DNA of 38,808 bases from a virus. Shown piece after piece: positions 1,854 to 38,469 of the stretch. Position numbers and translations under genes: made by a program. Every line of letters starts with the position of its first letter. Within the stretch, counting starts at the first letter, position 1. Where the stretch lies: positions 1 through 38,808 of the IMG/VR virus record IMGVR_UViG_3300023179_000251; one strand, 5' to 3'. The notes under the pieces are model-generated. The model saw only the letters and a program-made list of their open reading frames with translations. It had not been told where the DNA came from and did no database searches.

Positions 1854-1944
1854 AGGAGAGAGTGGGATTCGAACCCACGGACCCCCACTACTGACGATCT
1901 CTAGTTTTCAAGACTAGTCTAATAACCCTCTCTAGCACCTCTCC
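1854..1944 (-). tRNA. tRNA-Ser(TGA)
   Basis: Acceptor GGAGAG/CTCTCC, anticodon stem CTAGT/ACTAG with loop CTTGAAA, long variable arm, T-arm GTGGG/CCCAC with TTCGAAT loop. Confidence 0.93.
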
Positions 1945-1951
1945 ATATTTG

Positions 1952-2025
1952 CATAAGTGGTAGGGATCGAACCCACATCTTTCGGGTTGGAACCGAACGT
2001 GTTAACCATTGTTCACTACACTTAC
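1952..2025 (-). tRNA. tRNA-Trp(CCA)
   Basis: Acceptor GTAAGTG/CACTTAT with G73 as expected for Trp. Anticodon stem TTCGG/CCGAA with loop TTCCAAC; T-arm with TTCGATC loop. Confidence 0.9.
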
Positions 2026-2039
2026 GTTTATTTTATTTG

Positions 2040-2121
2040 TGGGAATAGATGGACTCGAACCATCGAAGTCGAATGACGAAAGATTTACAGTCTCTTGCAA
2101 TTGCCACTATGCGATACCCCC
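2040..2121 (-). tRNA. tRNA-Tyr(GTA)
   Basis: Acceptor GGGGGTA/TATTCCC (two G-U pairs), anticodon loop CTGTAAA, long class II variable arm typical of bacterial tRNA-Tyr, T-arm GATGG/CCATC. Confidence 0.92.
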
Positions 2122-2172
2122 AAATTCACTTTTTCCTTATCATGTAAGTTTAAAAGTGTAAAACCCAAACCG

Positions 2173-2245
2173 GTTCCCCCTCAAGGATTCGAACCTCAAT
2201 TCAATGGCTCAAAACCATTTGTACTGCCGTTATACGAAAGGGGAA
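2173..2245 (-). tRNA. tRNA-Gln(TTG)
   Basis: Acceptor TTCCCCT/GGGGGAA, anticodon stem AATGG/CCATT with loop TTTTGAG, T-arm with TTCGAAT loop. The base after the acceptor is C rather than the usual G73, which is unusual for Gln. Confidence 0.87.
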
Positions 2246-2251
2246 TATTTG

Positions 2252-2324
2252 TCAGGGTGTCGGAACTCGAATCCAAAACCTCTCCAATCCAAATGGAGTA
2301 ATCTACCAATTGATATACACCCTG
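2252..2324 (-). tRNA. tRNA-Pro(TGG)
   Basis: Acceptor CAGGGTG/CACCCTG with A73, anticodon stem CTCCA/TGGAG with loop TTTGGAT, T-arm with TTCGAGT loop. It is the first tRNA of the array in transcription order. Confidence 0.93.
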
Positions 2325-2354
2325 ATATTTCTAATACAATATGTCAAATAACTA

Positions 2355-2398
2355 AAATAAAAAACCCCCTAAATCTCTTTATATGGATTTAGGGGGTT
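2355..2398 (-). terminator. Intrinsic terminator after the small ORF at 2556
   Basis: A 13-bp perfect stem (AACCCCCTAAATC/GATTTAGGGGGTT) with a 10-base loop, followed on the minus strand by a T-rich tail. It would end transcription from 2556 before the tRNA array. Confidence 0.85.
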
Positions 2399-2418
2399 CA
2401 ATTAGATATATTATTGTT

Positions 2419-2556
2419 TTACCAATTAAACATATCCACCACACTAAATCCTAGTACTAACCAATACTGATGTAACGGTAATACCGAAACACAACTTTGG
2501 CATAGCGACTGTAATAGATACAATGACGATAATGATATGTTTATTAATGTTTTCAT
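2419..2556 (-). CDS. Small hydrophobic protein, 45 residues
   Basis: ATG at 2556 opens 45 codons beginning MKTLINISLSSLYLLQSL and ending in a second hydrophobic stretch (WLVLGFSVVDMFNW). Both halves could be membrane or secretion segments, and there are two Cys close together (CQSC). Three signals support a real gene: a Bacteroidota-type promoter upstream (2636-2666), a CTATTTAATAT motif (2567-2575) 11 bases before the start, and a strong terminator 20 bases after the stop. No family is recognised; a small membrane-active phage peptide is possible but unproven. Confidence 0.5.
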   Translation of the reverse strand: MKTLINISLSSLYLLQSLCQSCVSVLPLHQYWLVLGFSVVDMFNW

Positions 2557-2566
2557 TTTTTTTTAT

Positions 2567-2575
2567 ATTAAATAG
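2567..2575 (-). promoter_or_regulatory. CTATTTA-type motif before the 45-residue ORF
   Basis: On the coding strand the sequence reads ACTATTTAATATAAA 11 bases before ATG 2556. It is a variant (TTAAT instead of TTATA) of the motif found before other genes here. Confidence 0.4.
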
Positions 2576-2635
2576 TCTGTTTTTTTGTTTTTGTCATAGA
2601 AACATAAAAATATTTTTTACATTCCATTTATAATA

Positions 2636-2666
2636 CAAAGATAACATTTTTTTTCTAATTGTCAAA
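2636..2666 (-). promoter_or_regulatory. Bacteroidota-type promoter
   Basis: TTTG (2663-2666) followed after 19 bases by TATCTTTG (2636-2643) on the minus strand, matching the -33 TTG / -7 TAnnTTTG promoter of Bacteroidota. It is nearly identical to the sites at 6245 and 7869. Confidence 0.8.
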
Positions 2667-2683
2667 TCTTTTTTTATTCTTAA

Positions 2684-3349
2684 TTAAACTTTTTTAGTTT
2701 TAACAATATCATCAATAATTCCGTAAGCCAATGCTTCTTCAGAACTTAACCATAAATCACGTGACGCATCTTCTTTTACTTGGTTAGCATCTTTACCACA
2801 ATACCCACCTAATAAATTAAATAACAAATCATTTATTTTTTCCCATTCAATCATAGTTATTCTAGCATCCTGAATATTACCTCTAACACCACCAGAACTT
2901 TGATGTAACATTGTTTGTGAAAATCTTAATGACATTCTCTTACCTTTTGTACCAGCACCTAATAATACCGAACCCATTGAAGCTGCCATTCCTGTATTAA
3001 TTGTTCTAATGTCATTCGGAATATAATCCATTACATCCACAATTGATAATCCAGCCTTAACCGAACCACCGGGTGTGTCTAGGTGCATTGTGATTTCTTT
3101 CTTTGAATCTGAATTTGACAAGTAAATTAATTGAGCTTGAATAACTTGTGACATACCTTCATCAACAGGTCCTGCAACCCAAATAATCCTATCCTGCATC
3201 AATCTATCAAAAACTGACATAAGATTTGCTCTTGTTGGTCTTTCCTCCAAAATGTGAGGTGTCATTGACGATTGGAAATCGTGAAGATACATAGATGAAA
3301 TACCCATGTGTGATGTTGCGAATTTGTTAAAATCTGATTTATTATTCAT
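2684..3349 (-). CDS. clpP: ATP-dependent Clp protease proteolytic subunit (ClpP-like, phage)
   Basis: 221 residues, close to the usual ClpP length. The serine protease triad is visible: Ser124 in GMAASMGSVLL, His149 in QTMLHQSSGG and Asp198 in SRDLWLSSEEALAYGIID. The substrate-strand segment 'LDTPGGSVKAG' (90-100) is also typical. ClpP degrades unfolded proteins fed by a Clp ATPase; no ClpX/ClpA is in this window, so it would rely on a host or distant phage ATPase, or act in virion maturation like other phage ClpP-type proteases. The first 30 residues are extended. The start at 3349 lies 23 bases after a Bacteroidota promoter, the clearest promoter-gene pair here. Isolated, not in a structural operon. 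Confidence 0.92.
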   Translation of the reverse strand: MNNKSDFNKFATSHMGISSMYLHDFQSSMTPHILEERPTRANLMSVFDRLMQDRIIWVAGPVDEGMSQVIQAQLIYLSNSDSKKEITMHLDTPGGSVKAGLSIVDVMDYIPNDIRTINTGMAASMGSVLLGAGTKGKRMSLRFSQTMLHQSSGGVRGNIQDARITMIEWEKINDLLFNLLGGYCGKDANQVKEDASRDLWLSSEEALAYGIIDDIVKTKKV

Positions 3350-3371
3350 ATATTTTATTTTTATAATAATA

Positions 3372-3403
3372 CAAAAGTAATGAATAATTTTTATAAAACC
3401 AAA
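3372..3403 (-). promoter_or_regulatory. Bacteroidota-type promoter of clpP
   Basis: TTTG (3400-3403), 20-base spacer and TACTTTTG (3372-3379) on the minus strand, ending 23 bases before the clpP ATG. Confidence 0.75.
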
Positions 3404-3414
3404 TATTTATTTGT

Positions 3415-3633
3415 ATGAAAAATTTAATTAGAAGAATTCTTAAAGAAACGGTGGATAAAATGGAACAATTTAAAAAGGCATATACTCAACCACATATTAC
3501 ATTTGATAATACGCCATCAACCAAAAAAAGGATAGAATCAAACATATCTAAAAAATATGGATTTACAAACAAAAAAGAATATTATATTATAACAAACGAA
3601 AAAGGTCAATTAGTGGTTAAATTAAAGGCATAA
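3415..3633 (+). CDS. Small basic phage protein with shared N-terminal module
   Basis: 72 residues, starts MKNLIRRILKE, which resembles the short N-terminal module shared by other proteins in this window and ends in an LxE-type site (ILKE). The rest is lysine-rich, with 'KKYGFTNKKEYYII' and a C-terminal beta-like segment. No family recognised. It is one of few plus-strand genes and converges with the VWA gene at 3644; a bidirectional terminator sits between them. The ATG is preceded at 6 bases by a weak version of the CTATTTAT motif (ATATTTATTTG). Confidence 0.7.
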   Translation: MKNLIRRILKETVDKMEQFKKAYTQPHITFDNTPSTKKRIESNISKKYGFTNKKEYYIITNEKGQLVVKLKA

Positions 3634-3662
3634 AAAAAGTAGGTTATTCACCTACTTTTATC
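3632..3662. terminator. Bidirectional terminator between convergent genes
   Basis: Stem AAAAGTAGGT/ACCTACTTTT with loop TATTC, flanked by A and T runs on the respective strands. It overlaps the last codons of the VWA gene on the minus strand. Confidence 0.8.
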
Positions 3663-5482
3663 ATACTATAACGAATGTCGTTATAAATAACCCACAATTC
3701 ATCTTCAGGGTTTATTGAATCTTTGGATATTCCATCTAAGATTTGTGATAAACAACTTTCGTTAAAACCACCTATAAATAAACCATTTGGAGTATATTTT
3801 AACTCTTCCTTGATAAAATGAGTCATTGTGGTAATACCCCAAAAAATTAACTTTGGTCTCCATCCAATTGAATTGGCTAATGTAACCGCTTCTTTTGGTG
3901 ATTTACCTGAATTGTTTTCATTATCTGTTAAATATAATAATGTTTCAGGTAATTCTTCCATAGTACATCTACCTATTTTCACAAGATTTACAAAATATTC
4001 TACCGAAGCAAACATATTTGTTGACGCTATTTGTTTTGGATCAGTTTCCATAAGTAATCTGTAATTTTCAGTAAAAGTCTTTGTATGACTTACATACTTA
4101 TCTACATTGTTAAACATAGATACATAGGTATCACCATACTCAGACCTACCAAAAACTTTAAAGTCGTTTGAGAACCAACCATAAGTATTTCTAAATCTTG
4201 GGTTTGGATTCATCGTAGTAAATGCAATTGCCATTGCGTATGCTACTTGTCTGTTACTAATTCTTACACCATTATGGTCAAAACCAGAATCCATAGAACC
4301 CGAACCGTCAATAATTGGAAATACTGAATGTTTAATGTTCATTCTCTCAATCATTGATTGATAGTTGTTGTTTACTTGTTGAGCATTTAAACCCTTACCA
4401 AGCATTTCAGCCAACAAATCAATTGTTTGATCCCCTGTTGTTTTAACTTTGAAATCTTTCATCAAAGTCGCTTTTTCAGCAGGTGTGGTAGCTCTTCTAA
4501 TTTTTTCAGCTAAGTTAGATTGATCATCTTCCCAAGCTTTATACCATTTAGTAAGCTGACCCCATTTAGGATTACCCAATGATTTTACAACTCTTTTTCT
4601 TTGTCCCGCAGTCAAAGAATCCAAGAAACCATTAAATTGATCTTCTGTCATAGACATTACTGAACCACTTGACATTTTTTGTTCAGCAGTATTCTGCTTA
4701 CCCTTAAATGATTTGTATTCAGCAATTGTCCATCCCATATAATCACAAAAATCCTTAATCCACTTGTTTAAAAAACTTTGTCTATTTAAAGACTCAGATT
4801 TCTTTTCTCTTGGGTATTCAGCAACATCACCACTCTTAACCTTGATTTTATCATCAGTTACAAGATTTCCGTTGATTTTAACCCAAGATTTACCTTTCGG
4901 TAATGTCCAAGTGAATTCGGTTCTTCCTTTTGTACTAACTAAAGTTTTTTTAGTTGTTCTGTTCTTACCTGTAGCATATTTAGGTAAGTGTCTTGCGATT
5001 AAGTTCAAGTTTACACCTGATTCAATCTCAGACTTTAAGAAAGGAAACAAATATTGGTTGTCAATAAATAGTTTTTCAACACCCATAACATTACCCAAAT
5101 ATCTGTTTGTGTTTACTTGGTAATACATTAAAGTTTCGTATGAAGTAAATTCAACTACTAACTTTAAATTTTTATGCAAGAACTCTGGGGTGTTCTTTTG
5201 CATCCATCTTACACAAGATCTAAATATCTTTCTTTCTTGAGCCCCACCCACTTCTGAGTTGATTTCAAAATCTTTAAAGATATTATGTTTTCTTGAAATA
5301 TCTCCAATATGAAACATAATTCTATATAACATATCTTCAGTACCATTATCAATGGTTTCAGCGTAAGCTTTATCTAAAGCTAAATGAATTTGTTCATCTG
5401 AAGCACCTTTAGCGGTTCTCAAAAATTGTAACGTATCTAATGTGTTAGATAACTCCATTTTTTCTTTTACTAATTCTGTCAT
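3644..5482 (-). CDS. TROVE/DUF2828-like protein with C-terminal von Willebrand A domain
   Basis: 612 residues. The C-terminal part (about 385-605) is a VWA domain with the MIDAS motif D392-G-S-G-S-M and a later STN motif that would complete metal binding. The N-terminal 370 residues are mostly helical, with a 'NLIARHLPKY' segment recalling the 'AKWLP' segment of DUF2828/TROVE proteins. TROVE-VWA proteins (Ro60, bacterial Rsr) are RNA-binding rings that hold Y RNAs and misfolded RNAs; phage DUF2828 proteins are little studied. The gene lies 31 bases downstream of an abnormal tRNA-like RNA in the same direction, with no terminator between, and within a tRNA region, which fits an RNA-related role. 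The TROVE assignment is moderate, the VWA domain confident. Confidence 0.8.
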   Translation of the reverse strand: MTELVKEKMELSNTLDTLQFLRTAKGASDEQIHLALDKAYAETIDNGTEDMLYRIMFHIGDISRKHNIFKDFEINSEVGGAQERKIFRSCVRWMQKNTPEFLHKNLKLVVEFTSYETLMYYQVNTNRYLGNVMGVEKLFIDNQYLFPFLKSEIESGVNLNLIARHLPKYATGKNRTTKKTLVSTKGRTEFTWTLPKGKSWVKINGNLVTDDKIKVKSGDVAEYPREKKSESLNRQSFLNKWIKDFCDYMGWTIAEYKSFKGKQNTAEQKMSSGSVMSMTEDQFNGFLDSLTAGQRKRVVKSLGNPKWGQLTKWYKAWEDDQSNLAEKIRRATTPAEKATLMKDFKVKTTGDQTIDLLAEMLGKGLNAQQVNNNYQSMIERMNIKHSVFPIIDGSGSMDSGFDHNGVRISNRQVAYAMAIAFTTMNPNPRFRNTYGWFSNDFKVFGRSEYGDTYVSMFNNVDKYVSHTKTFTENYRLLMETDPKQIASTNMFASVEYFVNLVKIGRCTMEELPETLLYLTDNENNSGKSPKEAVTLANSIGWRPKLIFWGITTMTHFIKEELKYTPNGLFIGGFNESCLSQILDGISKDSINPEDELWVIYNDIRYSMIKVGE

Positions 5483-5512
5483 ATACTTTATGTTTTATAT
5501 TGTTAATAATAG

Positions 5513-5621
5513 CGGGGGGTGAAAGAATCGAACTTTCTATATTTGATGATTAGTCAAATTTTTACCATTGCTTTTAGAGTTATTCTAAGTGGTATTTTCA
5601 AACCACTAAAAATTACCCCCC
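5513..5621 (-). ncRNA. Atypical tRNA-like RNA upstream of the TROVE/VWA gene
   Basis: 109 nt with a perfect 7-bp acceptor GGGGGGT/ACCCCCC, a canonical T-arm GAAAG-TTCGATT-CTTTC, a D-arm-like TTTT-AGTGGTTTG-AAAA and a variable-arm-like hairpin TTTGA-CTAATCA-TCAAA. The place of the anticodon arm is a TACCA/TGGTA stem closing a 22-base loop that itself can form TTAGA/TCTAA, so no normal 7-base anticodon loop exists. It could be a class II tRNA (Leu TAG) with a 15-base insertion, a pseudo-tRNA, or a tRNA-mimicking RNA such as a bacterial Y RNA, whose genes sit beside Ro genes. A promoter lies just upstream at 5697-5728. Confidence 0.65.
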
Positions 5622-5696
5622 ATTTTTTTGTTTTTTAATTATAGTTTTTTAATAATTTAAAGTCAAATTATGATACAACTTTTTTTATTATTTCTA

Positions 5697-5728
5697 CAAA
5701 GGTAATAAAAAAAATCAGTAATACCAAA
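5697..5728 (-). promoter_or_regulatory. Bacteroidota-type promoter before the tRNA-like RNA
   Basis: TTTG (5725-5728), 20 bases and TACCTTTG (5697-5704) on the minus strand. It overlaps the terminator hairpin of the preceding tRNA-Gly, so one stretch both ends one unit and starts the next. Confidence 0.65.
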
Positions 5729-5743
5729 AAATATTACTGATTT
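5705..5743 (-). terminator. Intrinsic terminator after tRNA-Gly(TCC)
   Basis: Stem AAATCAGTAATA/TATTACTGATTT (5712-5743) followed on the minus strand by a run of T. It starts about 8 bases after the tRNA 3' end. Confidence 0.8.
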
Positions 5744-5750
5744 CTAAAAG

Positions 5751-5822
5751 AGCGAGTAGCCAGAATCAAACTGACATCCCCACGTTGGAAGCGTGGTATA
5801 ATAATCATTATACGATACTCGC
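5751..5822 (-). tRNA. tRNA-Gly(TCC)
   Basis: Acceptor GCGAGTA/TACTCGC with U73 as in bacterial Gly tRNAs. Anticodon stem CCACG/CGTGG with loop CTTCCAA; T-arm with TTTGATT loop. Confidence 0.92.
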
Positions 5823-5825
5823 GAA

Positions 5826-6076
5826 TTTTACGTCCTGGTGGGACGGGTTTAATGTTTTCCATCATTTCCCCTCCCTGAGATTATGGGTGAGTAGATATTT
5901 CCGGTTTCCTATTTGTAACCCTGTGGTTCTTACACCTTGAAAACTTCAACCATTACTGGGAGCAAGGATGATTTTCCAGCTTTATTCCCACGAAAGAGGT
6001 GTTAACGATGTCCTCTTTAAAACCGACCATAGATTAAATAAGTCTTTGATTAGACTGCTGAGTATCTCTTACTCAT
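5826..6076 (-). ncRNA. Hairpin-rich gene-free segment between two tRNA-Gly genes, candidate structured RNA
   Basis: About 250 bases without a plausible ORF and with visibly higher GC than the surroundings. At least six short perfect hairpins follow one another: TGAGT/ACTCA (6059-6075), AGTCT/AGACT (6041-6056), AAAGAGG/CCTCTTT (5993-6018), TGGGA/TCCCA (5957-5990), TTGAA/TTCAA (5937-5949) and CGTCC/GGACG (5831-5845). It lies between co-oriented tRNAs and would be in the same transcript. It does not match tmRNA, RNase P or 6S RNA as far as I can see. T4 encodes two stable RNAs of unknown role in its tRNA cluster; this is a possible parallel. Confidence 0.5.
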
Positions 6077-6078
6077 TG

Positions 6079-6150
6079 AGCGGGTGGGTGGGATTGAACC
6101 ACCATCCTTGACTTGGTAAGCCAATGCACTAACCGTTGTGCTACACCCGC
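6079..6150 (-). tRNA. tRNA-Gly(ACC)
   Basis: Acceptor GCGGGTG/CACCCGC with U73, D-arm GCAC/GTGC, anticodon stem TTGGC/GTCAA with loop TTACCAA, T-arm GGTGG/CCACC. The anticodon ACC with A34 is rare for glycine in bacteria, where GCC is usual. Confidence 0.82.
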
Positions 6151-6244
6151 ATTTGCTTCACTTTTAATTGGATTAAACACACCTTTTAATAGAGGGTAAT
6201 TTAATGATACTAATTTTAAGTGAAATATTATTTCATTTATAATA

Positions 6245-6275
6245 CAAAGATAACATTTTTTTTTAAATTGTCAAA
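6245..6275 (-). promoter_or_regulatory. Bacteroidota-type promoter before tRNA-Gly(ACC)
   Basis: TTTG (6272-6275), 19 bases and TATCTTTG (6245-6252) on the minus strand. About 30 bases around it are almost identical to the site at 2636. It is placed to drive the tRNA-Gly/structured RNA unit; about 90 bases of leader lie before the tRNA. Confidence 0.8.
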
Positions 6276-6280
6276 TTTTT

Positions 6281-6613
6281 TTAATCTTTTTTTATTCCTC
6301 CGTGTTTTTCAATTACTTGGATTATCAAACTCACTGGAACGTATGGATAAACAGTTTCAGTATATTCATTAGATTCAGAATAACTACTAATCAATTCCTC
6401 ATACTCAGAAGGAAACCCAATCTCCATTTCAGTAAAATTACTACCAAATTGTCTTGGGTTTGAATATGTAAATTCACCACCCTGAACTGACATAGAAAAC
6501 CCATCATTACATATTATTCTAGGTCTTGGTGTCCATCTACTAGTAGTAGTTTTTTCCATCCATTCTTGAAAATCTTGTTTTACATTTATTTTAAGTTTCG
6601 ATATACTTCTCAT
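6281..6613 (-). CDS. Conserved-looking phage hypothetical protein, 110 residues
   Basis: Contains 'RIICNDGFSMSVQGGEF' (residues 32-48), 'MEIGFPSEYEELI' and a C-terminal 'YPYVPVSLIIQVIEKHGG'. I recall this pattern from small phage proteins of unknown function that occur in many tailed phages. No catalytic motif or membrane segment. Its start overlaps the end of the upstream gene by 23 bases, so the two are translationally coupled in a three-gene operon starting at 7036. It is the last gene of that operon and ends beside the promoter at 6245. Confidence 0.8.
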   Translation of the reverse strand: MRSISKLKINVKQDFQEWMEKTTTSRWTPRPRIICNDGFSMSVQGGEFTYSNPRQFGSNFTEMEIGFPSEYEELISSYSESNEYTETVYPYVPVSLIIQVIEKHGGIKKD

Positions 6614-6938
6614 ATTTCTTTAATAATAATATTAAATCTGTTTTTAATCTATTTTTCAATTCAGTTATATCTTCATAATACCAACCATCCAATTCATTAA
6701 CTAAATCGTCATTTATTGATATAAACACTCTATTTACCCCTGAATTAAATACATATAATTCATCACTATTGTCAGAACATAATCTAATTGTCCAACCACC
6801 TATCCCATTATTCCTTAAAATAACATTCCAATTCAAACCATTATAAGTGAATAAACGATAAGTTATATTTGACATATCAACATTTGATATCCAATCACCA
6901 GTATATTTCACCCTTTTGATTTGTTTTACACCCCTCAT
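6591..6938 (-). CDS. Unknown protein, 115 residues
   Basis: Middle gene of a three-gene operon: its ATG overlaps the stop of the 33-residue ORF (ATGA) and its end overlaps the next gene by 23 bases. The sequence has alternating hydrophobic/polar stretches suggesting beta strands (e.g. 'YRLFTYNGLNWNVILRNN', 'GWTIRLCSD') and a C-terminal amphipathic helix with a LLLKKYEKY segment. No family recognised and no catalytic motif seen. Confidence 0.75.
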   Translation of the reverse strand: MRGVKQIKRVKYTGDWISNVDMSNITYRLFTYNGLNWNVILRNNGIGGWTIRLCSDNSDELYVFNSGVNRVFISINDDLVNELDGWYYEDITELKNRLKTDLILLLKKYEKYIET

Positions 6939-7036
6939 ACTTTGATTTTTTTTATTGAGGTTTTAACTGAACCTAAAGCGGTTTTTAATTCTTCGATATT
7001 TTCAGGATTTACCCTTAATGTTTCTATCTTTGCCAT
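6935..7036 (-). CDS. 33-residue ORF at the head of the 7036-6281 operon
   Basis: Starts MAKIETLRVNPENI and ends SIKKIKV; lysine-rich, one helix likely. Its stop overlaps the next start (ATGA), and a Bacteroidota promoter (7041-7071) ends only 4 bases before its ATG, which would give an almost leaderless mRNA. Those two facts are why I accept it despite its size. Function unknown. Confidence 0.6.
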   Translation of the reverse strand: MAKIETLRVNPENIEELKTALGSVKTSIKKIKV

Positions 7037-7040
7037 ATCA

Positions 7041-7071
7041 CAAATATACTTCTTTTTTTAATATTTACAAA
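7041..7071 (-). promoter_or_regulatory. Bacteroidota-type promoter of the three-gene operon
   Basis: TTTG (7068-7071), 19 bases and TATATTTG (7041-7048) on the minus strand, immediately followed by the ATG at 7036. Confidence 0.75.
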
Positions 7072-7089
7072 TTTTTTTAATTTTTTTTG

Positions 7090-7160
7090 TGGAATATTTG
7101 GAATTTGAATCCAAGCCTTACCCTGTTTAGGGTCTGCACATCCTTATGTGCTTTTATCCC
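7090..7160 (-). tRNA. Degenerate tRNA-like sequence (anticodon unclear)
   Basis: Acceptor GGGATAA/ATATTCC pairs at six of seven positions, D-arm GCAC/GTGC and T-arm TTGGA/TCCAA with TTCAAAT loop are good. The anticodon arm is only ACCC/GGGT around a six-base loop TAAACA, so no normal anticodon can be read. It may be a decaying tRNA. It is the last element of the third tRNA group. Confidence 0.55.
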
Positions 7161-7165
7161 ATTTG

Positions 7166-7239
7166 TACTACCAACCGGATTTGAACCGATAACCTTGATG
7201 GTATAAGCATCCTGCTCTCACCAATTGAGCTATGGTAGT
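7166..7239 (-). tRNA. tRNA-Ile(TAT)
   Basis: Acceptor ACTACCA/TGGTAGT with A73, D-arm GCTC/GAGC, anticodon loop CTTATAC giving TAT (reads AUA), T-arm ATCGG/CCGGT. Useful for an AT-rich genome in which AUA is frequent; most bacteria instead use a lysidine-modified CAT. Confidence 0.88.
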
Positions 7240-33836: not shown

Positions 33837-36755
33837 ATGATAGAATTAAATGAAATTTCAAAAGTTAAAGCTCTTGATATATTAAAAAGTTATGTTGGTG
33901 ATAACCCTTATATCTTGGAATTAAAAAGAACAAGAGAAAAGAAATCATTCTTACCTATAACTGAAAATCAAGCAAATTATATTATAAATAATCATACTTT
34001 TCAAGTAAAAGAAGTAAATAAGTTTTTGGATTTAACTAATTTCTTTAGAAACTCTTTAATGAGACAATTTAATATATCTATTCAAATAGAAAAGATTCTA
34101 ATAGAAAAGATTGTTGGGGAACAAGAAAAGGTATATCATGCTCAAGTTAAATTACTTAAAAATAGGGATTCTGAACTTATTTGGCTACCAAAAGCACAAT
34201 TAAATGAAGATTTATTTAGAGTTATACCTGAAGTAAATGTAGAATGGGGTAAATACTCTTCAAGGCTTCCTATGAAACATCAAGAAGAAGCAATAATTAA
34301 ATTACTTCAACACGATAAGTTTTTATTATTAGATACACCAGGTTTAGGAAAAACAGCATCTTCAATAATAGCGGCATTAGAATCGGGTGTTAAAAAAATA
34401 TTGGTTATATGTCCAGCATCACTTAAATTAAATTGGAAGAAAGAAATATCTATATATGATGATTCTGAAAATGTATCAATTATTCAAAGAGAATGGATAC
34501 CTAATAAATGGACAATCATTAATTATGATATATTGGATAAATTTAATACAATTGAAAAACCTAAAAAAGGTAAAAAACCTAAATTTAAGTTTCAAGAATA
34601 TGATGAAGTTGCTATAAATAATCATATAATAGATGAAAAATTTGATTTAATCATTTGTGATGAATGTTTTCAATATAATACTTTAGTTGACACTAATATT
34701 GGTAAATTACCAATAGGTAAAATAGTTGAAAAATGTATGGACGTTGAAATTTTATCATTAAATTTAAATACAAATCAACTTGAATATAAAAAAATTGATA
34801 GATGGATAAAAAAAGAAAATGACATTATTTTAAGAATAAAATATCAAAACGAATTATTTATAGAATGTACACCAAATCATAAAGTGTACGTTAAAAATAA
34901 AGGTTATATTAAAGCTGAAGATATTAAAGTATATGATGAATTGTATATGTTGCAACAAACCACTATCTCAGAGACAGATATGGAAGAAAGGGATGTTTTG
35001 CTCAAGGGATTGTGCCCAAATAGGAAAAGAAAAAAAGGGTTGGGAAAAAGGGAAATTAAAAAAACCTCTTTTAATAATAAATTGTCAAGAATGTCAAAAA
35101 GAAGTGTCAATCAAAAATTATTTAAAAGGGGTGCAAAGATTTTGTGGAAAATCTTGTTCAGCGAAATGGAGGATGAAACAAACGGAAATAAGGGAGAAGG
35201 TGTATTCGGAAGAAGTATTAAAAAAAATAAAAGTAAGTCAAAAATTAAATTATTTAAAAAATCCGGAAAGAGCGAAAAAAAGTTCAGAACGAATGAAAAA
35301 AGAAAATCCGATGTTTATACAGAAAAATATAGACAAAATGAAAAATTCTTTAAAGGGAAGGACTTTCCTATCGAGAGGAGGGAATGGGAAACTGACAAAC
35401 CAACAAGTAAAAATAAAAAGTTATTTATCAGAAGATTGGGTGATGGAGTATCCTATAAAAACAAAAGATGTGATGAACGATTTCAAATCGTTACCAACAT
35501 CATACAAAGTAGATATTGGAAATCCAAAATTAAAAATAGCTATAGAAATCGATGGGAATTCTCACAAAACAAAAAAATGGAAATTTTTGGACAGAAGAAA
35601 AACAGAAGTATTAAATTCGTTAGGGTGGAAAGTATTGAGATTTTGGAATCAGGAAGTAACGAATCAAATAGAAAACTGTTTAACGGTGATAAATCAGTAT
35701 ATAATATAGAAGTTCGTGATAATCATAATTATTTCGCCGATAACATACTAGTTAGTAATTGTCATTATTTAAAATCATTAAGTTCAAACAGAACAAAACA
35801 CGTTAAAAAAATAGTTAAACCAATTAAAAAAAGATGGTTTCTAACAGGAACACCTATCACAAATAAGCCTGTGGATTTGTTTTCATTATTATCTATGGTA
35901 GAACACCCACTTTCAACTAATTATAATTCATTCTTATATAGTTATTGTAACGCTAAAACTATGATAATTAAAGGTAGAAAAATTATTAAAGCTGATGGTG
36001 CTTCAAATCTTGAAGAATTAAATAGAAGGATTAAACCTGTTTCAATTAGAAGAAGAAAAGAAGATGTGTTAGATTTACCCGATAAAATTATTTCACCTGT
36101 TTATATTGAATTAGATGATGATGAAAAAATAGATTATGATTCATCTGTTGAAAGATATATTCAAATGAGAGAGGAACAGGGTAAAAATGTGTCATATGCT
36201 AAAAAACTTGTTGAATTATCCGTTTTAAGAAGATGGGTGGCTGAAAAGAAATTAAAACATACTAAAGAACTTATCAATAATTCTTTAGAGGGTGATAAAA
36301 AAGTAATTGTATTTACTGATTATACTTCAGTTGTTAATACTTTAAAAGAAGAATATAAGGATATTTGTGTTGTTATTAATGGTGAAACAAGTCAAAAAGA
36401 TAGACAAAAGGCTGTTGAGGATTTTCAAAATAACCCAAATGTTAGATTGTTTATTGGTAATACCGTAGCCGCTGGAGTTGGATTAACTTTAACTGCTGCT
36501 GAAGTTGTTATTGTAAATGATTTAAATTATACCCCAGCAAATATTGACCAATCATTAGATAGAGCGTATAGGATAGGACAAACTAAAGATGTAATATGTT
36601 ATTTCCCATTATTTGACGATACTGTTGATACAATAGTATATGAAGTTTTAGATAAAAAAAGATCCATTATTAATATGGCTATTGATGGTGTAATTGATAA
36701 CAAGGGTGTGGTTGAAGAAATCATTGAAAAGATTGACGCTAAATATAATAAATAA
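33837..36755 (+). CDS. SNF2-family DNA helicase/translocase precursor containing an intein
   Basis: 972 residues, of which 365 are intein (277-641), leaving a 607-residue mature enzyme. Helicase motifs in order: Walker A 'TPGLGKT' (167-173); motif Ia 'ILVICPASLKLNW'; Walker B D275-E276 | C642-H643, a DECH box split by the intein; motif III 'FLTGTPI' (668-674); motif VI 'DQSLDRAYRIGQ' (904-915). This is the SNF2/HARP type. It would remodel DNA-protein complexes or forks in phage replication. The mature enzyme needs intein splicing, since the insertion is in the catalytic box. The last 71 codons are duplicated downstream (see 37662-37877). First gene of the plus-strand block. Confidence 0.92.
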   Translation: MIELNEISKVKALDILKSYVGDNPYILELKRTREKKSFLPITENQANYIINNHTFQVKEVNKFLDLTNFFRNSLMRQFNISIQIEKILIEKIVGEQEKVYHAQVKLLKNRDSELIWLPKAQLNEDLFRVIPEVNVEWGKYSSRLPMKHQEEAIIKLLQHDKFLLLDTPGLGKTASSIIAALESGVKKILVICPASLKLNWKKEISIYDDSENVSIIQREWIPNKWTIINYDILDKFNTIEKPKKGKKPKFKFQEYDEVAINNHIIDEKFDLIICDECFQYNTLVDTNIGKLPIGKIVEKCMDVEILSLNLNTNQLEYKKIDRWIKKENDIILRIKYQNELFIECTPNHKVYVKNKGYIKAEDIKVYDELYMLQQTTISETDMEERDVLLKGLCPNRKRKKGLGKREIKKTSFNNKLSRMSKRSVNQKLFKRGAKILWKILFSEMEDETNGNKGEGVFGRSIKKNKSKSKIKLFKKSGKSEKKFRTNEKRKSDVYTEKYRQNEKFFKGKDFPIERREWETDKPTSKNKKLFIRRLGDGVSYKNKRCDERFQIVTNIIQSRYWKSKIKNSYRNRWEFSQNKKMEIFGQKKNRSIKFVRVESIEILESGSNESNRKLFNGDKSVYNIEVRDNHNYFADNILVSNCHYLKSLSSNRTKHVKKIVKPIKKRWFLTGTPITNKPVDLFSLLSMVEHPLSTNYNSFLYSYCNAKTMIIKGRKIIKADGASNLEELNRRIKPVSIRRRKEDVLDLPDKIISPVYIELDDDEKIDYDSSVERYIQMREEQGKNVSYAKKLVELSVLRRWVAEKKLKHTKELINNSLEGDKKVIVFTDYTSVVNTLKEEYKDICVVINGETSQKDRQKAVEDFQNNPNVRLFIGNTVAAGVGLTLTAAEVVIVNDLNYTPANIDQSLDRAYRIGQTKDVICYFPLFDDTVDTIVYEVLDKKRSIINMAIDGVIDNKGVVEEIIEKIDAKYNK
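34665..35759 (+). mobile_element. Intein in the DECH box of the helicase
   Basis: Starts with Cys (CFQYNTLVDTNIGKLPIG, block A); block B is 'FIECTPNHKVYV' with TxxH; ends with 'VYNIEVRDNHNYFADN' (block F) and 'ILVSN' followed by Cys+1 (block G). All splicing residues are present: Cys1, block-B His, terminal Asn and Cys+1. Removing it restores ICDE-CHYLK. The N-terminal 90 and C-terminal about 22 residues are normal; the 250 residues between are Lys/Arg/Asn-rich with no domain, because that DNA encodes an endonuclease in another frame. No LAGLIDADG or HNH motif exists in the intein frame. Confidence 0.92.
34933..35709 (+). CDS. Homing endonuclease encoded in the +1 frame inside the intein
   Basis: 258 residues. 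Two matching zinc fingers C4-x2-C7...C23-x3-C27 and C51-x2-C54...C71-x3-C75, a NUMOD3-like DNA-binding region (about 90-150, with 'SERMKKENPM'), and a Vsr/DUF559-like EDxHD nuclease with E205, D207, H211, D220 ('IAIEIDGNSH', 'FLDRRK', 'WKVLRFWNQEV'). The ATG pair at 34933/34936 lies over the codons for the intein's 'VYDEL', the end of its N-terminal splicing domain, and the stop lies over the first codons of block F. So the gene fills exactly the place where inteins normally hold an in-frame endonuclease. It would cut intein-less helicase alleles. Expression needs internal initiation or a frameshift. Confidence 0.88.
   Translation: MMNCICCNKPLSQRQIWKKGMFCSRDCAQIGKEKKGWEKGKLKKPLLIINCQECQKEVSIKNYLKGVQRFCGKSCSAKWRMKQTEIREKVYSEEVLKKIKVSQKLNYLKNPERAKKSSERMKKENPMFIQKNIDKMKNSLKGRTFLSRGGNGKLTNQQVKIKSYLSEDWVMEYPIKTKDVMNDFKSLPTSYKVDIGNPKLKIAIEIDGNSHKTKKWKFLDRRKTEVLNSLGWKVLRFWNQEVTNQIENCLTVINQYII
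36540..36755 (+). repeat. Helicase 3' end, copy 1 of a diverged direct repeat
   Basis: The last 71 codons plus stop of the helicase. By my count 60 of 71 residues and 176 of 216 bases are shared with copy 2 at 37662-37877; 21 of the 60 identical residues use different codons. The 906 bases between the copies hold the RHH and endonuclease genes. Confidence 0.93.
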
Positions 36756-36794
36756 TATTTTTTACCCAAAAATAATACTTTTTCATTTTTTTAA

Positions 36795-36803
36795 CTATTT
36801 ATA
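36795..36803 (+). promoter_or_regulatory. CTATTTATA motif before the RHH gene
   Basis: Reads AACTATTTATATAGTATG, four bases before the ATG at 36808. The only clear plus-strand copy of the motif. Confidence 0.5.
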
Positions 36804-36807
36804 TAGT

Positions 36808-36981
36808 ATGAGAAATAAACTAGAAGAAGAAAAAAAGAAAGTTAGGATATCACTAACTATTGACCCTGAAATTAGTAAGATTATTGATGAAAATTGTAGA
36901 AATAAATCAAGGTATATTGAAAACCTTATATACCAAGATTTAATTAAAAATAAATTGATTAAAGATAGTAAATTGTTATGA
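36808..36981 (+). CDS. Ribbon-helix-helix (Arc/CopG-type) DNA-binding protein
   Basis: 57 residues from ATG 36808 (an upstream ATG at 36694 lies inside the helicase gene and is rejected). 'KKVRISLTIDPEISKIIDEN' is a beta strand followed by a helix and 'KSRYIENLIYQDLIKNK' a second helix, the standard RHH dimer fold that inserts a beta ribbon in the major groove. Its stop overlaps the start of the endonuclease gene (ATGA), so the pair are one unit; it may repress the endonuclease or the helicase. RHH genes next to phage homing endonucleases are an unusual pairing. It has its own CTATTTATA motif. Confidence 0.8.
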   Translation: MRNKLEEEKKKVRISLTIDPEISKIIDENCRNKSRYIENLIYQDLIKNKLIKDSKLL

Positions 36982-37877
36982 ATAGATTAACGACTGAAGA
37001 TTTTATAGAAAAGGCAAAATCTATTCATGACGATAAATATGATTATTCCAAATCAGTATTTTTAACAACTAGAAGTAAAATTAAAATAACTTGTAAGTAT
37101 CACGGTGATTTTAACCAAAAGGCGAGTAATCACTTAAACGGTAATGGGTGTAAAAAATGTCATTTTGATAATAGAAAACAAAACTTTATTGAAAACGCAA
37201 AATCTGTTCATGGTGATAAATATGATTATAGTTTAGTTAAATATGAACATAATGAAAGTAAAGTTAAAATAATTTGTCCTTCTCATGGTGTATTCGAACA
37301 AACCGCTTATCATCATATAAATAGAAAACAAGGGTGTAAAATCTGTAAATCATCGATAGGTGAAAACATAATAAAAAAATATTTAGATGATAAAAACATA
37401 AAATATATTAAAGAGTGTAGATTTGATGAATGTAAAAATATCCAACCACTACCTTTCGATTTTTATTTACCTGATTATAATATCTGTATAGAATACGATG
37501 GTATCCAACATTATAAACCTCTAATATTCTTTGGTGGTGATAAAGGATTTAACAAATTAAAAATAAATGATACTATTAAAGATAACTATTGTAAAACTAA
37601 TAATATAAAACTAATTAGAATTAAATATACTGATACAAATATAGGAAATACCCTACTTCAAAATGTAGATCAATCATTAGATAGAGCTTATAGAATTGGT
37701 CAAACTAAAGATGTTATTTGTTATTTCCCACTATTTGACGATACAATTGATACTATTGTGTATGAAGTATTAGATAAGAAAAGAGATATTATCAATATGG
37801 CTATTGATGGTGTGATTGATAATAAAGGTGTAATTGAAGAAGTAATTAATAGATTAGATGAGAAGTTTAAAAAATAA
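36978..37877 (+). CDS. Vsr-like homing endonuclease fused to a copy of the helicase C-terminus
   Basis: 299 residues. Two repeats of about 55 residues (8-65 and 69-124; 'AKSIHDDKYDYSK', 'CKYHGDFNQKASNHLNGNGC' and 'AKSVHGDKYDYSL', 'CPSHGVFEQTAYHHI') are the Cys/His module (DUF723-like) of phage endonucleases. The nuclease follows: 'PFDFYLPDYNICIEYDGIQH' with E172, D174, H178, an EDxHD/Vsr-type core. Residues 229-299 are a copy of the last 71 residues of the helicase, in frame. The fused tail lacks most helicase motifs and cannot be an enzyme. The family is unlike the nested endonuclease apart from the nuclease fold. Confidence 0.85.
   Translation: MNRLTTEDFIEKAKSIHDDKYDYSKSVFLTTRSKIKITCKYHGDFNQKASNHLNGNGCKKCHFDNRKQNFIENAKSVHGDKYDYSLVKYEHNESKVKIICPSHGVFEQTAYHHINRKQGCKICKSSIGENIIKKYLDDKNIKYIKECRFDECKNIQPLPFDFYLPDYNICIEYDGIQHYKPLIFFGGDKGFNKLKINDTIKDNYCKTNNIKLIRIKYTDTNIGNTLLQNVDQSLDRAYRIGQTKDVICYFPLFDDTIDTIVYEVLDKKRDIINMAIDGVIDNKGVIEEVINRLDEKFKK
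37662..37877 (+). repeat. Helicase 3' end, copy 2, fused to the endonuclease
   Basis: Codons for residues 229-299 of the endonuclease ORF, aligning without gaps to 36540-36755 up to and including the stop. The alignment begins at N(I/V)DQSLDR and no similarity continues upstream, so this is where the element boundary lies. Confidence 0.93.
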
Positions 37878-38025
37878 ACATCGAAATACTTCACATATTA
37901 TTTTTGCTCGTAATTGTATGCAAGAATTAGTGTCCAAACCAACAAATAATGGTTTAACACAAATAAGTGATGATGATTTAATTAAAATTGAAACTATATT
38001 GAATAGGTATAGAAAAAAAAGATAA
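37858..38025 (+). CDS. Small basic ORF overlapping the end of copy 2, 55 residues
   Basis: ATG at 37858 opens 55 codons (MRSLKNKHRNTSHIIFARN..., ending ETILNRYRKKR) in a different frame from the endonuclease, overlapping its end by 20 bases. A second ATG at 37906-37908 would give 39 fewer-than-full residues starting MQELVSK. The overlap suggests that before the insertion this gene followed the helicase directly, which would make copy 2 the ancestral helicase 3' end. The C-terminal 'SDDDLIKIETILNRYRK' is a likely helix. No family. Confidence 0.45.
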   Translation: MRSLKNKHRNTSHIIFARNCMQELVSKPTNNGLTQISDDDLIKIETILNRYRKKR

Positions 38026-38469
38026 TTACTTTAAAGCATTTATTAAAGCCAATTTAATAGCGTTAGATAAAACTGTTTGTTTAAATGGAACTTCTTCATT
38101 TATTTCAAGCATCATAGCATTTGTGGATGTTTTATAAGTTCCAGTTCCTTCCATTATTCTAATCCCATTTATTACTTTAACTTTAATTTCCGTAATTTTA
38201 TTTTGTAAAGCAAATCCAGCGATTCTAAATGTATTTTCAGGTAATCCTATATAAGTTATTTCAACATATATAGGTGATCCATCTTGACAAATATCAAAAC
38301 CTTTATCTTGTAATAAATCTTCAGTAATTTGTTTTATACCAAATAATACCGATCTATTCTCAATAGATTTCATTTCAGTTTTATTATAAACTGAATCAAC
38401 TTTTACACATTGTCCAAATGAAAACAATGGAAGGAATAATAACCCAAATAATAAACTTTTAATTGTCAT
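38026..38469 (-). CDS. Secreted/periplasmic protein of unknown function
   Basis: 147 residues with a clear Sec signal peptide: MTIKSLLFGLLFLPLFSFGQ, then C20. The lipobox pattern is not met (Gln before Cys), so it is probably cleaved by signal peptidase I rather than lipidated. The mature part has 'VLFGIKQITEDLLQDKGFDI' and 'IYVEITYIGLPENTFRIAGF' and ends helical. Such domestic-looking Bacteroidota envelope proteins in a phage may alter the host surface or come from the host. Its start overlaps the preceding gene by 11 bases, so it is cotranslated with it. Converges with the plus-strand block. Confidence 0.75.
   Translation of the reverse strand: MTIKSLLFGLLFLPLFSFGQCVKVDSVYNKTEMKSIENRSVLFGIKQITEDLLQDKGFDICQDGSPIYVEITYIGLPENTFRIAGFALQNKITEIKVKVINGIRIMEGTGTYKTSTNAMMLEINEEVPFKQTVLSNAIKLALINALK

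Follow-up and report, generated by a model that had tools for sequence, protein, structure and literature searches.

The last 71 codons of an SNF2-type helicase gene occur twice in the virus record IMGVR_UViG_3300023179_000251 (38,808 bases, referred to below as the window), on either side of a gene for a predicted homing endonuclease. The block that consists of the first of these copies, the ∼11 nucleotides (nt) directly upstream of it, a small open reading frame (ORF) for a ribbon-helix-helix (RHH)-like protein, and the endonuclease gene is best explained, with a probability of about 85%, as a homing element that was inserted into the helicase gene at the N codon of the motif N(I/V)DQSLDR. 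The copy that now completes the helicase was imported with this element, and the native gene end has been displaced downstream. Loci from viral contigs that were compared with the window are designated here by L-numbers, such as L003.

The helicase gene (Pfam SNF2-rel_dom, Helicase_C, and Intein_splicing; the intein occupies positions 34665-35759) runs on the plus strand from position 33837 to the junction at 36539 and continues into copy 1 of the duplicated end (36540-36755, including the stop codon). Copy 2 (37662-37877) forms the in-frame end of a 299-amino-acid (aa) endonuclease ORF (36978-37877). This repeat had been described in an earlier note made from the sequence of the window, and its figures are confirmed by direct count: 60 of the 71 residues and 176 of the 216 nt (ungapped) are shared, the codon has changed at 21 of the 60 conserved residues, and the coordinates place 906 bases (36756-37661) between the copies. 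Over the 213 coding nt, mismatches at the first, second, and third codon positions number 8, 4, and 28, respectively, and the similarity of the second copy is far beyond chance (E value of 2e-59).

The stretch between the copies comprises, all in plus orientation, a leader from the helicase stop codon to the small ORF (36756-36807), which on direct reading resembles the leader in L014, the 57-aa RHH-like protein (36808-36981), and the 228-aa endonuclease itself (36978-37661). The RHH assignment is weak (Pfam RHH_9, E value of 0.099; Arc-like PHROG family, E value of 0.064), and a homologous stretch is found in L014. These two ORFs are the only ones between the copies with any family match. Rfam models at gathering scores detected only tRNAs in the window and no intron RNA around the endonuclease, and the helicase reads complete without splicing.

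Cassette-free relatives and the origin of the new end

The helicase C-extein, used to scan viral contigs, retrieved 18 relatives (L003 to L020), and an alignment query returned 15 loci, one of them (L182) new. L018 to L020 are distant (30 to 33%), and the tail was looked for and not found in them. The 16 close relatives are L003 to L017 and L182; L016 ends 48 nt into the tail and was left out, so that 15 have a readable tail. A single tail of the copy 2 type, with no cassette, is present in 11 of these 15 (L003, L005 to L011, L015, L017, and L182), and a single tail of the NIDQ type, again with no cassette, in 3 (L004, L012, and L013). The remaining relative, L014, carries both tail copies along with the cassette.

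The nearest relative of the window is the cassette-free L003, which shares with it 767 of 768 nt of the C-extein up to position -12 relative to the junction and has a helicase body that is 99.5 to 99.9% identical. From -11 to the end of copy 1, the two differ at 43 positions, including -11, -10, -4, and -1, which precede the AAT codon at the junction. The single L003 tail matches copy 2 at 211 of 213 nt and copy 1 at only 82%. It is followed, as is copy 2, by a 55-aa ORF (37858-38025 in the window, plus strand), which also lies behind the single tail in L005, L015, L017, and, by translation, L182; the next ORF (147 aa, 38026-38469, minus strand) belongs, as judged by tblastn, to the native flank common to most relatives. 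Since the window equals L003 upstream of the junction and the sole tail of L003 corresponds to copy 2, with the 55-aa ORF behind it, copy 2 is the native helicase end and copy 1 came with the cassette. The earlier note had suggested that an element entered the helicase gene with a replacement 3' end of its own and had named these two comparisons as the check; by sequence comparison, that suggestion is supported. The arrangement that it had named as contrary evidence, tandem tails without the endonuclease, was looked for among the 15 close relatives and found in none of them, the only two-tailed locus being the endonuclease-bearing L014. As to the entry point, the junction does lie at the N codon of N(I/V)DQSLDR, but the replaced stretch begins 11 nt upstream of the duplicated part, at about position 36529; within 36529-36539, the window shows the four differences from L003 and no difference from L004.

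The best match of copy 1 is the tail of L004 (94%), as opposed to 79 to 82% for the copy-2-type tails. The NIDQ-type tails (window copy 1, L004, L012, and L014 copy 1) occupy one side of the tail tree (91/99, not starred), window copy 1 and L004 being joined at 100/100. In the body tree, the window goes with L003, and L004 with L007 and L008 (96/99). The approximately unbiased (AU) test rejects the placement of copy 1 with the tails of its own lineage (p = 6e-5), a grouping of the L004 tail with those of L007 and L008 (p = 2e-12), and a single clade for the bodies of the NIDQ-type carriers (p = 9e-6). These tests reject vertical descent; copy 1 groups with the L004 tail although the L004 body belongs elsewhere, and it is an import. 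The end that had been described as the element's own, recoded one did arrive with the cassette; it is, however, more than a recoded copy of the local sequence, as it clusters with a tail from a different lineage. L004 is itself a mosaic: its C-extein is 98.4% identical to that of L008, yet its tail is only 80% identical, and past the stop codon the flank is again L008-like. Judging by these comparisons, the L004 tail is one that was swapped in without a cassette.

The gene order of the window is found again in L014, with the junction at the same codon; the two tail copies of L014 enclose a small ORF related to that of the window and an endonuclease with 71% identity. The L014 endonuclease is fused in frame to NVDQSLDR, and its C-terminus is shorter than that of the window enzyme.

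The endonuclease and a model of its insertion

The 228-aa endonuclease (phrog_559, E value of 3e-63) contains two DUF723-like repeats followed by a nuclease domain of the Vsr/I-Bth0305I type. Its AlphaFold model, based on a 15-row alignment, has a predicted local distance difference test (pLDDT) score of 91. Residues 126 to 228 superimpose on Vsr (1cw0; Z score of 10.6, root mean square deviation [rmsd] of 2.3, 96 residues aligned) and equally on the catalytic domain of I-Bth0305I (3r3p; Z score of 10.5, rmsd of 2.4, 85 residues aligned). Neither Foldseek alone (at an E value of 0.001) nor a sequence search of the PDB (at an E value of 1) returned any match. In 15 homologous sequences, Glu129, Asp161, Glu172, and His178 are invariant and Asp198 is nearly so; the Pfam DUF723 match (E value of 0.0008) is just under its cut-off. 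The model thus supports a predicted homing nuclease of the EDxHD/Vsr type with a DUF723-like DNA-binding half.

Such an enzyme would be expected to cut the uninterrupted helicase gene at or near the junction. The whole block would then be copied in during repair templated by an occupied donor allele, with homology provided by the helicase body and, on the far side, by the native tail. With the tail supplied by the element completing the helicase, the gene would stay unbroken, and the native tail would be left as a remnant fused to the endonuclease. The sequence around the junction is altered in the imported tail, and an occupied allele would therefore be expected to escape further cutting.

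Duplicated gene ends at other phage genes

A scan with the endonuclease yielded 70 loci, and an alignment-based scan yielded 79 loci that were kept among at least 566 relatives; together with L014 and the window, these account for 181 endonuclease genes, 126 of them distinct, among the matches listed. A peptide shared at 30 bits or more by the left and right flanks was found for 13 of the 126 listed endonucleases, versus 0.69 expected from 15,750 mismatched flank pairs; in a first control, 10 of 244 ordinary ORFs reached the same score. As neighboring paralogs also score, that null and that control are weaker than an adjacency test in which the copies had to lie within 300 nt and 120 nt of the gene, a criterion set after the first matches were known. 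By this test, a duplicated gene end abuts both sides of 13 of the 126 listed endonucleases and of 4 of 318 ordinary ORFs from the same loci (p = 4e-5). With doubtful rows, sorted by eye, removed, the counts are 11 of 126 and 1 of 318 (p = 6e-6). The endonuclease rows dropped were L070 and L033, where the matches look endonuclease derived or compositional; the control ORFs dropped were those in L092 and L051, which match endonuclease segments, and one in L070, which is located in an array of endonucleases with an identical short repeat. The control ORF that was kept (L115) reflects paralogous membrane genes.

It is the 3' end of the gene that is duplicated in the window, L014, L023 (twice), L110, L031, L029, and L104, and the 5' end in L048, L111, and L067; L099, L108, L157, L096, and L131 are weaker cases. 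By family match, the affected genes encode an acetyltransferase-like protein (L110), a head-tail adaptor-like protein (L104), a helicase (L029), a 5'-3' exonuclease-like protein (L048), and a Pth2-like protein (L111); no family match was found for the affected gene of L031. The endonuclease may be on either strand relative to the affected gene. All carriers found are environmental contigs, and no laboratory phage with the arrangement was found among the named phage records sampled.

Pairs of occupied and empty sites are available for the window (L003), L031 (L249), and L237 (L235), and in all three the displaced end is nearer to the empty relative than the inserted end is; no such pair was obtained for L104, L108, L111, L099, L157, L096, L131, L048, L029, or L067. 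In L031, the gene body is 99.2% identical to that of L249, and the remnant and the sequence that follows match the empty site exactly, the first mismatch lying in the next gene. Relative to L249, the new end of L031 has changes at positions -1, +3, +5, and +8 from the junction, a single one (+95) in the 107 nt after these, and further changes in the last codons, which makes this locus the clearest apparent sign of an altered target site, with the counted test giving only p = 0.057. L237 is 92% identical to L235 in the body and 89% in the remnant, and its new end is at most 76% identical to any of 51 cassette-free tails. The L110/L185 locus is not polarized: the cassette-free L186 has the new end (97%), but its body is only 84% identical.

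The GNAT-like (acetyltransferase-like) gene was compared in 64 loci. All four of those with an endonuclease have a full second tail, and none of the other 60 do (a few are cut short or match in the body only). One and the same HP(K/R) codon is the starting point of the remnants of this gene in L110, L023, and L237. In L023, the order is gene, end, endonuclease, end, endonuclease, end, which, on sequence grounds, is a record of two successive insertions. In the region 3584-6065 of L023 (the same as L212), one gene end is present in three diverged copies, of which the second begins further upstream in the gene than the third. Two of the 60 endonuclease-free loci, L200 and L202, retain a 27-aa remnant of the gene end; it lies directly behind the intact GNAT-like gene (at ∼3429-3509) and looks like a deletion scar.

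There seems to be a somewhat better than even chance that end-swapping homing elements form a general class among the Vsr/EDxHD endonucleases of phages, each of them carrying the 3' or 5' end of the gene that it attacks, altered enough to escape its own cut. Invasion of conserved coding sequence would then cost the gene nothing, and the swapped end would act as an antidote that could outlast the nuclease and persist by itself as a resistant allele (L004, L012/L013, and L186), leave scars (L200/L202), or be displaced by the next element (L023).

Alternative explanations and known systems

Several observations weigh against the homing-element interpretation of the helicase locus or against its extension to a class. 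Clustering of changes at the junction is seen only in L031, at a Fisher p value of 0.057 (0.30 for the window and 0.86 for L237). Approximately 110 of the 126 distinct endonucleases listed have no duplication, and in named phage records the arrangement accompanies none of 16 related endonuclease genes (15 stretches; 0 of 10 and 0 of 6 in five larger ones). Ends of the imported type are found without any endonuclease in L004, L012, L013, and L186; these are located at 4781-4996 in L004, at 4781-4996 in L012/L013, and at 2049-2198 in L186. Such ends were apparently swapped in or left behind after loss of the cassette, and they are candidate resistant alleles. Finally, the copies in L014 are the reverse of those in the window, copy 1 resembling L012 of its own body lineage (97%) and copy 2 resembling L006 (96%), so that the L014 locus is not polarized. 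L012 equals L014 copy 1 up to +199 (one difference) and L014 copy 2 beyond +194 (one difference) and looks like a recombinant of the two, such as loss of a cassette via the repeats or conversion of a tail would produce. The reversal would reflect either loss or tail conversion in L012/L013 or different crossover points that moved different copies.

The main rival, at least for the first event in each gene, is an accident of one-sided repair. A free-standing homing endonuclease gene (HEG) downstream of the helicase gene in a donor would have been copied by homologous repair at one end, with body and tail taken from the donor, and joined illegitimately at the other to the broken tail of the recipient; the duplication would then be a by-product of repair rather than a part that the element transmits. 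Two features would be explained in this way, namely, the absence of a stop codon between the endonuclease and the tail and the unequal lengths of the endonuclease C-termini in the window and L014; in addition, a donor-like tail without a cassette does exist, in L004. Against it stand the recurrence of this anatomy in L014, at the identical codon and with a 29% diverged endonuclease, the stacked L023 locus, and the shared HP(K/R) codon of the GNAT-like gene remnants in L110, L023, and L237. Such repeated use of the same codons suggests a unit that reinserts site-specifically, and the accident, while possible, appears distinctly the less probable course.

The other alternatives are very improbable. 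That both copies look like functional helicase ends, with mismatches mostly at third codon positions, would fit an old tandem duplication later split by the endonuclease; yet there is a single tail in L003, which matches the window at 767 of 768 nt upstream, the affinity of copy 1 is to a different lineage, and no close relative is two-tailed without the endonuclease. L014, taken at face value, would suggest that the endonuclease brought the distal tail and that copy 1 is native, a view contradicted in the window by L003, in L031 by L249, and in L237 by L235. An assembly chimera of two strains is conceivable for a metagenomic contig, given that L004 represents a strain whose tail is 94% similar, but it can hardly account for the 906-nt stretch between the copies, for the same order and in-frame fusion in the independent L014 contig, or for similar loci in unrelated contigs. 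An integrase-driven element was rejected, there being no integrase or recombinase between the copies, and an intron was considered improbable, tRNAs being the only Rfam matches in the window.

The closest published match to the homing element proposed here comes from fungal mitochondria. In the parts of the report consulted, Beaudet et al. (2013; PMC3630166) report this very arrangement for atp6, atp9, cox2, and nad3 of Glomus, with LAGLIDADG or GIY-YIG enzymes, and cite atp6 of Allomyces macrogynus as the first case of a mobile endonuclease ORF with such a duplicated C-terminus. As in the window, the endonuclease lies near the 3' end of an essential gene, a foreign C-terminus is in phase with the gene body, and the native C-terminus, which is nearer to that of empty relatives, is displaced downstream (PMC3630166). 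Unlike these ORFs, as far as they are described there, the window element has a Vsr/EDxHD-type nuclease and belongs to phages, where 5' ends, a stack, scars, and cassette-free swapped ends are found as well (PMC3630166). Given its predicted Vsr-type fold, the phage element appears to work like the fungal ORFs without being one of them by descent. The replacement-end strategy is therefore not new in itself; what appears new, to judge from the open-access literature searched, is its use in phages, by another nuclease family, and at 5' ends too. The earlier note had instead likened the arrangement to integrative elements, with a homing endonuclease in place of the integrase; the fungal ORFs are the closer published parallel. 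Some integrative elements restore the end of their target gene, using an integrase and short attachment repeats. The window element likewise supplies the end of its target gene, but it has a nuclease and a 216-nt diverged copy.

Fractured genes with split inteins and Vsr-like endonucleases were reportedly described by Dassa et al. in 2009; in these, the gene is said to be split and its product rejoined by protein splicing, with no duplicated end. The nuclease is related to that of the window element, which differs in having the duplicated gene end. L065 looks like a locus of this kind and was rejected as a gene-end duplication, its flanking match being one of intein against intein. In its region 1924-7214, as read by eye, a split intein apparently divides a DNA polymerase-like gene, the two parts of which flank a related free-standing endonuclease; a helicase-like gene with an intein-like insert of its own comes next.

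I-Bth0305I is encoded in an intron of a RecA gene. It shares with the window enzyme the fold of the catalytic domain and the phage origin; to judge from the sections of its description consulted, it differs from that enzyme, which has DUF723-like repeats on the presumed DNA-binding side and brings a gene end (PMC3943268; PDB 3r3p). The free-standing HEGs of phage T4 adjoin a phage gene, as in the window, and have their cleavage site in the neighboring gene (intronless homing). Some HEGs insert into coding regions, but the insertions covered in the parts of the T4 review consulted split genes in two and supply no second end, and the stem "duplicat" is absent there (PMC2988022). No duplicated gene end is described in the consulted portions of a phage HEG survey (PMC10448857) or of that review, and no description of an end-swapping endonuclease of phages was found in the open-access literature searched, including the parts consulted of PMC10448857, PMC2988022, PMC12724721, and PMC3943268.

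By bringing a replacement gene end, a homing endonuclease can occupy conserved protein-coding sequence without an intron or intein, and end swapping makes patches of phage genes mosaic. The sequence signature, a duplicated and diverged gene end abutting a nuclease gene on both sides, allows guesses at target sites without experiments. The loci also provide natural pairs of target and altered sites for mapping the specificity of a poorly characterized nuclease family.

Two other features of the window deserve mention. The minus strand carries 18 tRNA genes between positions 1087 and 7571. The helicase intein (34665-35759) sits at a DE|CH motif and contains, in a different frame, a nested endonuclease ORF (34933-35709; DUF559, Pfam E value of 2e-14; MTES_1575-like). 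In the viral-contig scan, L003 was the only other carrier found of an intein with this nested endonuclease. The helicase frame is open through all 258 codons of the nested ORF; none of 2,000 random synonymous versions of that ORF kept it open, the minimum being 18 stop codons.

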